Shown here one piece after another: positions 53,476 to 56,862 of a DNA stretch of 64,000 nucleotides. Numbering within the stretch: position 1 is the first letter of the stretch; every line of letters starts with the position of its first letter. This DNA comes from Prosthecobacter vanneervenii (GTDB taxonomy: Bacteria; Verrucomicrobiota; Verrucomicrobiia; Verrucomicrobiales; Verrucomicrobiaceae). Location of the stretch: NCBI RefSeq assembly GCF_014203095.1, contig NZ_JACHIG010000012.1, positions 62,001-126,000 on the forward strand, in the 5' to 3' direction. The notes beneath the pieces were generated by a model. That model did not search any database. It was not told where the DNA came from and saw nothing but the letters and a program-made list of their open reading frames with translations. The position numbers were made by a program, and so were the translations under genes.

Positions 53476-54396
53476 ATGATCTCACGCCGTCATTTTCTTT
53501 CCACCAGCCTCGGCGCTCTCAGCGTCTCCACCCTGCCCGCCATCGAGCCCATCAAGCGCCCCGGCAAGAGCCGCATGCAGCTCGGTGTGGCCGCCTACAG
53601 CTTCCGCGACTACTTCCAGTGGATGCGCGACAAGGAGCAGAAGCCGAAGGACGGCAAGCCGCAGTGGAGCATCCTCGATTTCATCGACTGGTGCGGCGAC
53701 AACAACGTTCCCGGCGCAGAAGTGACCAGCTACTTCTTCCCGAAGGACGTAGATGAGGCATTCCTCCTGGAAGTGAAACGCCGCGCCTATCTGCGTGGCG
53801 TGCAGCTGGCAGGCACGGCGGTGGGCAACAACTTTGCCCTGCCAAAAGGTGAGAAGCTGAGCGAGCAGATCGCCTACACCAAGAAGTGGATCGACCACTC
53901 CGCCATCATGGGCGCACCGCACATCCGCGTGTTTGCCGGACCGCAGCCGAAAGACCTCACGGAAGAGCAGGCCGTGGCCAACTGCCTGGAGTCCTACCAG
54001 GAGTGCCTCGACTATGCCGCCAAGAAAGGCGTCTTCCTCGGCCTGGAAAACCACGGCGGCATCGTGGCGGAGCCGCAAAACCTCATCAAGATGGTGAAGG
54101 CCGCCAAGAGCCCCTGGGCCGGCATCAATCTCGACAGCGGCAACTTCCACACCGAAGACCCCTACGCCGATCTCGCCAAGATCGCCCCGTATGCCGTGAA
54201 CGTGCAGCTCAAGATGGAGATCAGCCGCAAAGGCGCCAAGAAAGGCGAAAGCGAGCCCAGCGACGTGAAACGCGTGATCCAGATCATGCGCGACGCCAAC
54301 TACCAAGGCTGGTTCACCCTCGAGTTTGAAACCAAGGAAGATCCCTTTGTCCGCGTGCCCGAGATCTGCGACATGCTGCGCCCCTTGTTGGCCTGA
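53476..54396 (+). CDS. Exported TIM-barrel sugar isomerase/epimerase-like protein
   Basis: This 306-residue protein has a twin-arginine-type signal (MISRRHFLSTSLGALSVSTL) and a xylose-isomerase-like TIM barrel. Metal-site text includes LENHGGIVAEP, AGINLDSGNFHTEDP, and FTLEFETKEDP. These proteins act on sugars; the exported form is common in Verrucomicrobia. I start at the ATG at 53476; the longer in-frame reading to 52588 is the shadow of the esterase. Its stop abuts directly the first unit of the 10-bp repeat array. Confidence 0.88.
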   Translation: MISRRHFLSTSLGALSVSTLPAIEPIKRPGKSRMQLGVAAYSFRDYFQWMRDKEQKPKDGKPQWSILDFIDWCGDNNVPGAEVTSYFFPKDVDEAFLLEVKRRAYLRGVQLAGTAVGNNFALPKGEKLSEQIAYTKKWIDHSAIMGAPHIRVFAGPQPKDLTEEQAVANCLESYQECLDYAAKKGVFLGLENHGGIVAEPQNLIKMVKAAKSPWAGINLDSGNFHTEDPYADLAKIAPYAVNVQLKMEISRKGAKKGESEPSDVKRVIQIMRDANYQGWFTLEFETKEDPFVRVPEICDMLRPLLA

Positions 54397-54446
54397 GTTT
54401 GCGTTGGTTGGCAGTTGTTTGCGATGGTTTGCAGTGGTTGAATGAG
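54397..54446 (+). repeat. Left arm: tandem 10-bp repeats (GTTTGCRRTG type)
   Basis: Five consecutive 10-bp units in exact register: GTTTGCGTTG, GTTGGCAGTT, GTTTGCGATG, GTTTGCAGTG and a degenerate GTTGAATGAG. The array begins immediately after the isomerase stop codon. The last 10 coding bases of that gene (GTTGGCCTGA) also fit the register. The reverse-complemented right arm at 54863-54912 carries the same units, so together they frame the four-helix-bundle gene. Confidence 0.85.
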
Positions 54447-54491
54447 GCCTTGGGCGCGCTTTGCGCCTGAGGTTCTTGATTGCTGCAGACC

Positions 54492-54869
54492 ATGAGAAAA
54501 GAATTCCCCTTTGAGAAGCTGGAAGTCTGGCAGGATGCCCGGAAGCTGGTCCGCTCCGTGTATGAGTGCGCAGGTGCATTTCCATCCGCAGAGCGCTTTG
54601 GCCTGGCCAGCCAGCTCACCCGCGCCTCAGTTTCTGTGGCCAATAATCTGGCCGAGGGCAGCGGGCGCTCCAGCCTGAAAGATCAGGCTCACTTTTCCAG
54701 CCAGGCCTACAGCTCCCTCATGGAGACAGCGTGCGATCTCATTCTCTCCAACGACCTTGGTTTCACCTCCAGAGAGGCCACCGATCCCATCCTGAACCAG
54801 GCCTACGACCTCTCGGTCCGCATTCACAATCTCCGCGAATCCCAGCTCCGCCGCTCCTCTCAGGCTTGA
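54492..54869 (+). CDS. Four-helix-bundle protein (23S rRNA-intervening-sequence/Avd-like)
   Basis: This 125-residue protein has the S23/IVS four-helix-bundle signature. It begins with FEKLEVWQDARKLVRSVYE, has NNLAEGSGRSSLKDQAHFSSQ in the middle helix turn, and YSSLMETACDLIL. Solo members of this family occur inside 23S rRNA intervening sequences or as lone chromosomal genes. The Avd accessory protein of diversity-generating retroelements has the same fold. No reverse transcriptase or template repeat is nearby. The start is the ATG at 54492 (an in-frame TTG lies four codons earlier). It is framed by inverted arrays of 10-bp repeats. Confidence 0.9.
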   Translation: MRKEFPFEKLEVWQDARKLVRSVYECAGAFPSAERFGLASQLTRASVSVANNLAEGSGRSSLKDQAHFSSQAYSSLMETACDLILSNDLGFTSREATDPILNQAYDLSVRIHNLRESQLRRSSQA

Positions 54870-54912
54870 AACCATCGCAAACCACTGCCAACAACTGCAA
54901 ACCACCGCAAAC
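54863..54912 (-). repeat. Right arm: inverted tandem 10-bp repeats
   Basis: On the minus strand, outer to inner, the units read GTTTGCGGTG, GTTTGCAGTT, GTTGGCAGTG, GTTTGCGATG and a degenerate GTTTCAAGCC that covers the four-helix-bundle stop codon. Paired outer-to-inner with the left arm, 33 of the first 40 bases match. Shifted one unit, a 20-base block matches 19 of 20. The array ends six bases before the glgE start codon. Confidence 0.85.
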
Positions 54913-54918
54913 CCCGCC

Positions 54919-56862
54919 ATGTCCCACGCCCCTACCGTCGTCATCGAAAACTTCTACCCCTGCCTCGATGGCGGGCGGCATCCGGTCAAACGTGTCATTG
55001 ATGAAACGCTGGATGTCTGGTGCGACATCTTCAAAGACGGACATGATGTGATGAGTGCGGTGCTGCGCTGGCGCACGGCGGGCTCCAAACGCTGGTTTGA
55101 GGCTCCCATGAAGCTGCTGGAAAACGACCGCTGGCATGGCCAGTGCCGCTTTCCCAAAGCCGGACGCTGGGAGTATGTCGTGGAGGCCTGGGGAGACACC
55201 TTCCGCTCCTGGAAGAAGACCTTCGCCGTGCGCGTGCAGGCCAAGGATCCCGACGTACCTGTGGAGGCCCAGGAAGGCGCACGCCTGCTGCGCGAGGCCG
55301 CGAAGCGCGCCCGCTCTGCGGGCACCGCCGCCAAGCAGCTCGAAGACTTTGCCGATGTGCTCACCTCCTCCAAGCCTGCAGACCTCATGGACGTGCTGCT
55401 CTCCGAGGAACTGCAGAGCCTGATGGACCAGTACCCGGACCGCTCCCAGTCCACGACCTCAGACACCCTGTGCGCCACCGTGGAGCGCGAGCGCGCACGC
55501 TTCTCAGCCTGGTATGAGTTCTTCCCGCGTGGCGCCGAGGGCCGCAGCGACAAGCACTCCACCTTCCGCGACTGCCTGGGCCGTCTTGATCACGCGGCGC
55601 ACATGGGCTTTGATGTCATCTATTTCCCGCCGATTCACCCCATCGGTGTCACCGCACGCAAAGGCAAAAACAACACCCTCACTGCCAAAGAGGGCGATGT
55701 GGGCAGCCCATGGGCCATCGGCGGCCCGGCAGGCGGGCACTACAACATCGAGCCCGCGCTCGGCACCGAGAAGGACTTTGTCTGGCTGGTGAAGGAGGCC
55801 AAGAAGCGCGGCCTCGAAATCGCGCTCGACTTTGCGCTCAACTGCTCGCCAGATCATCCCTATGTGAAAGACCACCCCGAGTGGTTCTACCAGCGCCCGG
55901 ACGGCAGCATCCGCTACGCGGAGAATCCGCCGAAGAAGTATCAGGACATCTATCCGCTGAACTTCCACTGCGACGACTGGCGCAACCTCTGGAAGGAACT
56001 CATCGCCGTGGTGCAGTTCTGGGTGGACCGCGGCGTGAAGATCTTCCGTGTGGACAATCCGCACACCAAACCCGTCGCCTTCTGGGAGGAGCTCATCGCC
56101 ACCATCCAGCGCAAGGATCCGGACGTGCTCTTCCTGGCCGAGGCCTTCACCAAGCCGAAGATGATGCAGGTGCTGGGCAAGGTGGGCTTCACACAAAGCT
56201 ACACCTACTTTACCTGGCGCGAGGACCGCCAGTCCCTGACCGAGTACGCCACCGAGCTGACCCGTGGCGATATGCGCTGGTACTACCGTGCCAATTTCTG
56301 GCCCAACACCCCCGACATCCTGCCCGGCCACCTGCAAAATGCGGGCGGGCAGATGTTCCGCATCCGCGCCGCACTGGCCGCCACACTCTCCTCCACCTGG
56401 GGCATGTACTCCGGCTACGAGCTCTGCGAAAACGACCCCTACCCCGGCAAGGAGGAGTACAACAACAGCGAGAAGTACGAACTCAAGCAGCGCGACTACA
56501 ACAAGCTCGGCAACATCACCGGCTTCATCCGCCAGCTGAACCTCATCCGCCGCGAGAACCCGGCGTTGCATCTCTACGACAACCTCCGCTTCCACCACGC
56601 GGACCACGCCCAGACACTCTGCTACAGCAAGGCCACGCCTGACTTCAGCAACCGCATCCTTTGCGTCATCAGCCACGATGCCCACCACCCCGCCATCGGC
56701 ATGGTGCATCTGGACCTCAGCGTCCTCGGCCTGGATGGCAGCCGCCCCTACAAGGTGACCGACCTGCTGCACAACCAGACCTACGAATGGCGCGGCGCGG
56801 ACAACTACGTGGAACTCCGCCCCGGCGGCACCGCGATGCACATCTTCCGCGTGGAGCAGTGA
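54919..56862 (+). CDS. glgE: Alpha-1,4-glucan:maltose-1-phosphate maltosyltransferase
   Basis: This 647-residue GH13_3 enzyme transfers maltose from maltose-1-phosphate to glycogen-like glucans. An N-terminal beta-domain precedes the (beta/alpha)8 barrel. Family text includes FSAWYEFFPRGA, DVIYFPPIHPIG, ALDFALNCSPDHPYV, the nucleophile D379 in FRVDNPHTK and the acid E408 in FLAEAFTKP. Length fits GlgE. The companions treS, pep2 and glgB of the GlgE pathway are not in this window. Confidence 0.95.
   Translation: MSHAPTVVIENFYPCLDGGRHPVKRVIDETLDVWCDIFKDGHDVMSAVLRWRTAGSKRWFEAPMKLLENDRWHGQCRFPKAGRWEYVVEAWGDTFRSWKKTFAVRVQAKDPDVPVEAQEGARLLREAAKRARSAGTAAKQLEDFADVLTSSKPADLMDVLLSEELQSLMDQYPDRSQSTTSDTLCATVERERARFSAWYEFFPRGAEGRSDKHSTFRDCLGRLDHAAHMGFDVIYFPPIHPIGVTARKGKNNTLTAKEGDVGSPWAIGGPAGGHYNIEPALGTEKDFVWLVKEAKKRGLEIALDFALNCSPDHPYVKDHPEWFYQRPDGSIRYAENPPKKYQDIYPLNFHCDDWRNLWKELIAVVQFWVDRGVKIFRVDNPHTKPVAFWEELIATIQRKDPDVLFLAEAFTKPKMMQVLGKVGFTQSYTYFTWREDRQSLTEYATELTRGDMRWYYRANFWPNTPDILPGHLQNAGGQMFRIRAALAATLSSTWGMYSGYELCENDPYPGKEEYNNSEKYELKQRDYNKLGNITGFIRQLNLIRRENPALHLYDNLRFHHADHAQTLCYSKATPDFSNRILCVISHDAHHPAIGMVHLDLSVLGLDGSRPYKVTDLLHNQTYEWRGADNYVELRPGGTAMHIFRVEQ

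Follow-up and report, generated by a model that had tools for sequence, protein, structure and literature searches.

An IVP gene framed by inverted tandem arrays in Prosthecobacter vanneervenii, probably one copy of a small mobile element

In the 23S rRNA IVS of Coxiella, the S23p ORF lies in the loop of a 28-bp inverted stem and is preceded by GACAGAT heptamers; transposition or mobility is one of several hypotheses for the origin of IVSs, and in the part of the source available to us that origin and the function of S23p are called unknown or unclear (PMC4990558). The S23p protein of Xanthomonas is a pentameric ring (PMC4990558). REPIN-RAYT systems occur as several independent families per genome (PMC3116915). 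Heptameric repeats, among them GGGAATC in Xanthomonas and GGGGAYT in Nostoc, are over-represented in many bacterial genomes and have received little detailed work, and one X. campestris strain holds 70 inverted GGGAATC pairs; the available part of this source treats heptamers as G-quadruplex repeats and does not contain the words "four helix" (PMC4692102).

A first-pass annotation of the locus described here knew of no described element with its layout, which was too strong a statement given the similar Coxiella 23S IVS (PMC4990558). The copy at 54397-54912 resembles 23S IVSs in that a terminal inverted repeat encloses its IVP ORF in a loop; it lies outside any 23S rRNA gene, between a TIM-barrel gene and glgE. 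We consider it probable that this interval is one copy of a small mobile element, made up of an IVP gene and inverted degenerate arrays, and propose that the IVP protein drives it with a host partner.

Layout of the locus and its protein

The window is the whole stretch of DNA that was analysed, 64,000 nucleotides of the P. vanneervenii contig NZ_JACHIG010000012.1 (positions 62,001 to 126,000). The locus and its neighbours are laid out as follows.

53476..54396, + strand: target flank on the upstream side, a host gene for a xylose-isomerase-like TIM barrel (approximate start codon)
54397..54439, + strand: left terminal array, with four well-defined 10-bp units (GTTKGCNNTK type)
54440..54491, + strand: leader, from the left array to the start codon
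54492..54869, + strand: IVP/S23p four-helix-bundle gene, 125 aa (TIGR02436, PF05635)
54870..54912, - strand: right terminal array, the left-array unit inverted
54919..56862, + strand: downstream host gene glgE, target flank

Profile searches matched the upstream neighbour to PF01261 (6.9e-28) and the downstream neighbour, GlgE with its start at 54919, to PF11896 (2e-52). The left array abuts the TGA of the upstream gene (54394-54396) and is followed by the leader, which contains a short GC-rich hairpin (GGGCGCGCTTTGCGCC region), and by the IVP gene (ATG at 54492, stop at 54867-54869); the right array starts immediately past that stop codon and ends 6 bp short of the glgE start, so that the fit between isomerase stop and glgE start noted in the first-pass annotation is confirmed. 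Its inverted 10-bp arrays are also present at the coordinates it gave, and its five clean units per side become four good ones and one doubtful. The left units read GTTTGCGTTG, GTTGGCAGTT, GTTTGCGATG and GTTTGCAGTG, followed by a poor fifth (GTTGAATGAG) at 54437-54446; the right units, reverse-complemented and taken from outside to inside, read GTTTGCGGTG, GTTTGCAGTT, GTTGGCAGTG and GTTTGCGATG, with a poor innermost unit (GTTTCAAGCC). The pairing counts given earlier were reproduced (33/40 outer-to-inner, 19/20 with a one-unit shift), and the arms 54397-54439 and 54870-54912 are 84% complementary over 43 nt, with an arm-to-arm score of 51 against a maximum of 25 among 400 dinucleotide shuffles of the flanks. 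In a sliding periodicity test the right arm (22) exceeds the 99th percentile of control stretches (21) and the left arm (19) falls below it; the inverted pairing of the arms is stronger than their periodicity alone.

The gene between the arrays encodes, as first proposed, a 125-residue four-helix bundle, which matches PF05635 at 102.8 bits (cut-off 33.8; 1.5e-29) and TIGR02436 at 92.2 bits (cut-off 24). Its predicted structure has a mean pLDDT of 97.4, and the top Foldseek match is S23p 2gsc (E 3e-7 to 4e-6, TM 0.84-0.89 by query length), followed by 2rld and then by Avd chains of DGR complexes (4dwl/8ub; probability 0.94-1.00, E 0.13-1.1, identity 6-15%). The predicted kinship of IVP to Avd is thus at fold level only. 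After length and stop filters the protein set held 96 sequences, and 71 of the 80 broad-set proteins passed the filters of the conservation analysis. Residues Q41, R44, S48, N52, E55 and E78 are conserved in 91-100% of 168 sequences, and the first five of these share one helix face, judged by spacing; this near-invariant polar face (Q/R/S/N/E/E) stands out from the otherwise variable 125-aa protein (54492-54866). Profile searches of the IVP protein gave PF05635 and TIGR02436 only, with no nuclease, transposase or recombinase domain seen, and no partner enzyme was identified in the genomes analysed. PADLOC phage-defence profiles gave 0 families at E<=1, and one query of 50,697 phage records found no IVP.

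Arrays around IVP genes in other genomes

IVP genes are present in 34 of 37 genomes (the own genome and its relatives), with 147 matches, from which 114 loci were taken and 113 scored, one having too little flank. Flank complementarity exceeds the 99th percentile (24.6) of 339 random-position same-locus controls at 86 of the 113 loci and lies above every one of these controls at 83. Under a stricter control built from arms of different loci, which includes some genuinely related arrays, 71 of the 113 loci lie above the 99th percentile and 88 lie above the 95th. A broad set of 80 loci, out of at least 303 confirmed candidates in a one-genome-per-species collection, spans about ten phyla by record titles (Bacteroidota, Planctomycetota, Omnitrophota, Spirochaetota, Cloacimonadota, candidate phyla and others); at 52 of these loci complementarity is above 26, the 99th percentile of 320 controls, and at 25 it is above the highest control (39). 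The arm threshold is missed by 27/113 loci in the relatives and 28/80 in the broad set. Gene and inverted flanking repeats therefore form one unit across a broad bacterial sample, and the arrays that were sought around related IVP genes are present there, as expected if the arrays and the gene belong together.

Compared in direct orientation, the identical flanks pass at 19/113 loci in the relatives and 6/80 in the broad set, and the direct match is stronger than the inverted one at 10/113 and 6/80 (L290, L040, L043, L050, L055, L139 and others). Some of the top flank scores may stem from duplicated or misplaced flanks. The own genome has five IVP genes, each framed by arrays by eye and each with a different unit, of which three pass by score (51, 62 and 40) and two, L002 (22) and L003 (21), fall below 24.6. 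Our confidence in the mobile-element reading is lowered by the direct-orientation minority and by these two loci. Direct instead of inverted flanking repeats at a minority of loci would suit an ordinary host gene lying beside simple-sequence repeats that arose by polymerase slippage, with no element at all, as would the slippage-like perfect runs in the own genome (C1:1366677) and in G019; we hold this reading to be very improbable, since slippage accounts neither for the framing of one gene family by inverted complementary arrays nor for clean occupied and empty sites, and site A (below) contradicts it.

In a sample of the own phylum the IVP family is found in 103/145 genomes. Plasmids gave 33 records with an IVP match, of which ten were examined and later also L300, L301, L308 and L312. 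Short-unit arrays are visible by eye in 10/10 cyanobacterial plasmid copies and score above 26 in eight; L287 scores 19, and L290 scores 10 because its 7-mer arrays are in direct rather than inverted orientation.

The periodicity of the flanks exceeds the 99th percentile of 676 control stretches in 34/113 left flanks and 32/113 right flanks, and on both sides at 18 loci, so that tandem character is numerically weaker than inverted framing. Periods of 7 or 14 account for 27 (left) and 28 (right) of the passing flanks, followed by 8 and 10. The unit thus varies by locus, 7 bp being commonest and 10 bp that of the window copy, and the suggestion that ten bp matters as one helical turn is not supported, since the arrays that pass the periodicity test are mostly built of 7-bp units. 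Units were also compared between loci, using every pair with similar proteins and 400 sampled pairs from each other class. Among 118 pairs with at least 50% IVP identity and dissimilar neighbours, 35% have an array in common (score >=30) and 65% of the pairs at these unrelated sites do not reach that score; the share falls to 0.25% among 400 pairs at 35-50% identity and to 0.5% among 400 distant pairs (>=50% against distant, Mann-Whitney p 1.6e-24, the pairs not being independent). Loci with the same protein subfamily tend to have the same array unit, at unrelated sites too.

IVP genes lie mostly in operon-like settings. Both neighbours are co-directional with IVP at 58/72 broad-set loci and 67/109 loci in the relatives, and both are opposite at 4/72 and 12/109, these being the loci at which both neighbours were called (as the longest ORF, which is error-prone in GC-rich DNA); as a baseline, 11/39 genes in the window have both neighbours on their own strand. 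Where arms are good and neighbours co-directional, the median distance from the upstream stop to the left arm is 0 nt (broad set, 38 loci) or 4 nt (relatives, 51), and from the right arm to the next start it is 6 or 11 nt, respectively. With the element removed, the median gap is 9.5 nt, compared with 49 nt for 179 other co-directional pairs from these loci (p 5.6e-7). The short residual gap and the start at the stop codon indicate that tight co-directional operon junctions are favoured, a preference that may come from targeting or from selection for read-through expression. L004 and L005 in the own genome (C6:141737 and C8:307519) have an IVP element at like junctions with differing units, in operons of what we take, by eye, to be a MoxR-type ATPase gene followed by a DUF58-type gene.

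The orientation bias is also in line with an RNA-level element, in which the transcribed arms pair into a stem, RNase III cuts it as in the 23S IVS, the stem is under selection and the protein handles RNA. RNase III excision of the Coxiella IVS has been demonstrated (PMC4990558), and the 521-nt sense strand of the window copy folds better than 100/100 shuffles (z -4.57), with a long terminal stem. Any inverted repeat would give such a z-score, and the arm mismatches have no G-U excess, the counts being 74 G-U to 81 A-C for the relatives (p 0.63, 86 loci) and, in the opposite direction, 54 G-U to 76 A-C for the broad set (p 0.065, 52 loci). The G-U test is not final, since young insertions would not yet display selection. 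Selection on a sense RNA stem was on these counts rejected as the favoured account, the RNA-stem reading offered earlier losing its footing with it, and an RNA-level element survives as a rival that we judge unlikely. Copying between arms at the sequence level, or DNA ends recognised by a protein, would fit better.

Gene-less inverted arrays are scattered through the own genome. With up to 2 mismatches allowed, the window unit has 76 occurrences there, grouped in 30 clusters (4 matches in the control), with + then - arrays in 5 clusters besides the window locus, so that dispersed miniatures with inverted repeats sharing the gene-flank repeat, a trait of REPIN-RAYT systems, are found in this genome. 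The exact pattern of the unit pair GTTKRCNNTKGTTKRCNNTK has 91 copies in the own genome against 1 in the control and up to 205 elsewhere (16 in that genome's control), and is absent from 8/39 genus genomes. Among the first-sampled 24 genomes, arrays are present in 11/11 with a matching gene among the clustered proteins and also in 7/13 genus genomes with no such match. A second unit, GAATGNCGAATGNNGAATGNC, is found in 20/37 genomes (0-152 copies, controls 0); it has 0 exact matches in the own genome, where L004 has a degenerate form. Near-identical runs of 10-bp units (GTTTGCGGTG, GTTGGCGGTG) at C1:1366677-1366756 of the own genome (L009) and at C5:465908-466027 of G019 have no inverted partner among the nearby arrays listed, as if slippage expands arrays. 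At L023, L007 and L032 (own genome C4:330301, C1:1166019 and C10:40413), AAGTTTA-like and CTCCTCTTCC-like arrays lie near GTTTGC arrays, as if elements insert side by side.

Occupied, empty and gene-less sites

Mobility, which the first-pass annotation could only infer, is supported by insertion polymorphism on plasmids, one clean 5-bp duplication, and occupied, gene-less and empty states of one chromosomal site. Site A, on conjugative cyanobacterial plasmids, is occupied in Trichormus variabilis plasmid C and in Scytonema, and empty in Microchaete and Nostoc linckia plasmids that are 97.9/97.7% identical to the Trichormus plasmid; the insert is 428 bp, and GTAAT is present once in the empty site and twice in the occupied one. 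By eye, Nostoc C052 has a decayed copy at this site and Brasilonema a gene-less hairpin. Across the unrelated sites A, B and C the elements share 78-83% DNA identity over about 420 bp, two plasmid sites with elements related to that of site A are empty in relatives, and a fourth plasmid site is occupied by another IVP subfamily. An IVP element is also present at the cas10-cmr3 junction of Picosynechococcus 7003 and not in 7002, and behind an integrase gene in Calothrix and not in three relatives. Sites C and E have approximate duplications only (TTCTA bearing a 1-nt indel; an exact ATG, or TAATG at 1 mismatch), sites B, D and F (90-95% identity) lack a clear one, and the duplication is clean at 1/6 sites (A). 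Precise occupied and empty states with duplication are thus seen for related copies, the window copy itself excepted.

IVP genes lie between cas genes on the cyanobacterial plasmids of L286, L288 and L290 (cas10^cmr3, cas6^cas4), and they look like insertions rather than CRISPR components. A figure legend in a CRISPR survey includes "23S rRNA IVP" among its abbreviations (PMC10910872). As a caution, IVP genes in operons, CRISPR ones included, may be insertions and not functional partners.

For the glgE site, 30 loci were taken out of the 37 genomes with a match, and 1 of them was unread: nine are full copies, five have arrays without a gene, two are remnants, one is empty (same neighbours, no arrays) and 12 have no isomerase end upstream. 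The isomerase end lies no more than 170 nt from the IVP gene in 8/9 full copies (L148 is the exception). The isomerase^glgE interval is therefore not fixed among relatives, and an empty site, which it had been proposed to look for, was found. Five of the nine full copies are of GC type in both arms (L152 with one AC-type unit) and four of AC type in both arms with few GC-type units, and by eye the type tracks two protein subclades. In the AC-type glgE copies L146, L149, L158 and L160, an additional inverted copy of the unit is visible by eye between the left array and the IVP start, giving three arrays around the gene. A strict correspondence of the dispersed GC or AC variant with that of the gene copy was not seen; in G005 the gene is of GC type and 102/172 dispersed pairs are of AC type. 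Across the full copies the median dN/dS is 0.063 (29/36 pairs usable, dS near saturation with a median of 2.0), which points to strong purifying selection on the IVP protein at this site. In the leader of a prepilin-like gene, a gene-less copy is found at 10 loci and is absent at 17, two of 29 being unread; no stop codon interrupts the 45 codons covered there. Some of the absences of the element in Verrucomicrobiota could reflect loss.

DDE transposases typically leave short target duplications. Such duplications would suit a reading in which MITE-like array ends are moved in trans by an unrelated transposase and IVP is cargo of benefit to the element or the host, as would the Y1 transposases of 35/37 genomes and the own-genome places of the window unit, where those with no gene outnumber the single one with the gene. 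One gene family nevertheless lies within arrays of many differing units across the broad sample, the array unit tends to follow the protein, and G026 has IVPs and no Y1 match, so we think a passenger role rather unlikely. Y1 transposases were set aside as a discriminating candidate, being too common.

The co-directional bias and insertion at stop codons in operons are compatible with a transcript-linked path, in which an RNA copy would be reverse transcribed and inserted by a host or DGR-type reverse transcriptase with IVP acting like Avd. The IVP fold resembles Avd in DGR complexes, a kinship stated in the part of PMC10053308 available to us, and the own genome has 3 RVT_1 matches elsewhere. 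Against this, RVT_1 is absent from 16/34 IVP-bearing genomes, 11 of them at least 90% complete and among them G005 (99% complete, 6 IVPs) and the single-contig G028 (7 IVPs), and the likeness to Avd is at fold level, at the low identities given above and Foldseek E of 0.13 or more. A resident reverse transcriptase as a requirement was rejected on the 16 genomes, and a retro-element is in our estimate quite unlikely.

Preferred reading and comparison with known systems

In the preferred reading, a mobile element driven by IVP, the IVP protein is a candidate for moving the element. IVP, of the ring-forming S23p type and related to Avd in fold, would recognise its own arrays, as DNA or as a folded single strand, and, together with a host partner enzyme, deliver them to a target that is nicked or cut. 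Gene-less copies would be mobilised in trans, a route also proposed for REPINs and RAYTs; the IVP gene would be expressed by host read-through, and the 23S rRNA IVS would represent an insertion of this element into an rRNA helix. This is possibly a new class of transposable element. A fuller version, in which the class has array ends, a four-helix ring as mobility protein and operon stop junctions as target, and is the source of heptamers and rRNA IVSs, is put forward tentatively, as something we would sooner doubt than affirm. If it is true, the Q/R/S/N/E/E face acts in strand transfer or in recruitment of a host enzyme, and much enigmatic heptameric repeat content, together with rRNA IVSs, is traced to IVP elements; one element family could then unite these repeats and IVSs. 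The occupied and empty plasmid pairs make the element testable in cultured cyanobacteria.

Heptameric repeats resemble the arrays in being degenerate 7-bp tandem arrays that are mostly intergenic, in the part of PMC4692102 available to us. The S23p structure 2gsc comes from X. campestris, the species with inverted GGGAATC pairs, and a link between heptameric repeats and IVP elements is our inference. The STRR of cyanobacteria are heptameric repeats, and Elhai in 2008 and Vioque in 1997 reportedly worked on cyanobacterial repeats.

The 23S IVSs of Coxiella, Leptospira and others are like the window element in that terminal inverted repeats form a loop around an S23p/IVP ORF, and the Coxiella IVS measures 428 nt by RACE (PMC4990558), the site A insert 428 bp. 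They are known within rRNA genes, whereas window-type elements lie between protein genes with arrays on both sides and, unlike 23S IVSs, vary in unit by locus and have gene-less dispersed forms and insertion polymorphism. Five 23S motifs, used with no positive control, were not found in the IVP loci examined in the relatives and the broad set. In a search of open-licence PMC papers, no title or abstract described an IVP element that is free-standing and ends in arrays; the anatomy is thus known in rRNA, and a free-standing mobile family with array ends appears to be undescribed in the literature searched.

The Avd of DGRs has a fold similar to that of the IVP protein, whereas the window element has a single gene, PF05635, and no reverse transcriptase. 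Like REPIN-RAYT systems, IVP elements combine dispersed inverted-repeat hairpins with one gene that has the matching flank repeat. RAYT is a tyrosine transposase, whereas the window gene is a four-helix bundle with PF05635 as its sole match and there is no Y1 between the arrays; REPIN ends are palindromic REPs, whereas window-type ends are degenerate tandem arrays; and, unlike REPIN-RAYT, the IVP element has a target duplication at its clearest site. By analogy, REPINs may serve as the closest working model for IVP elements.
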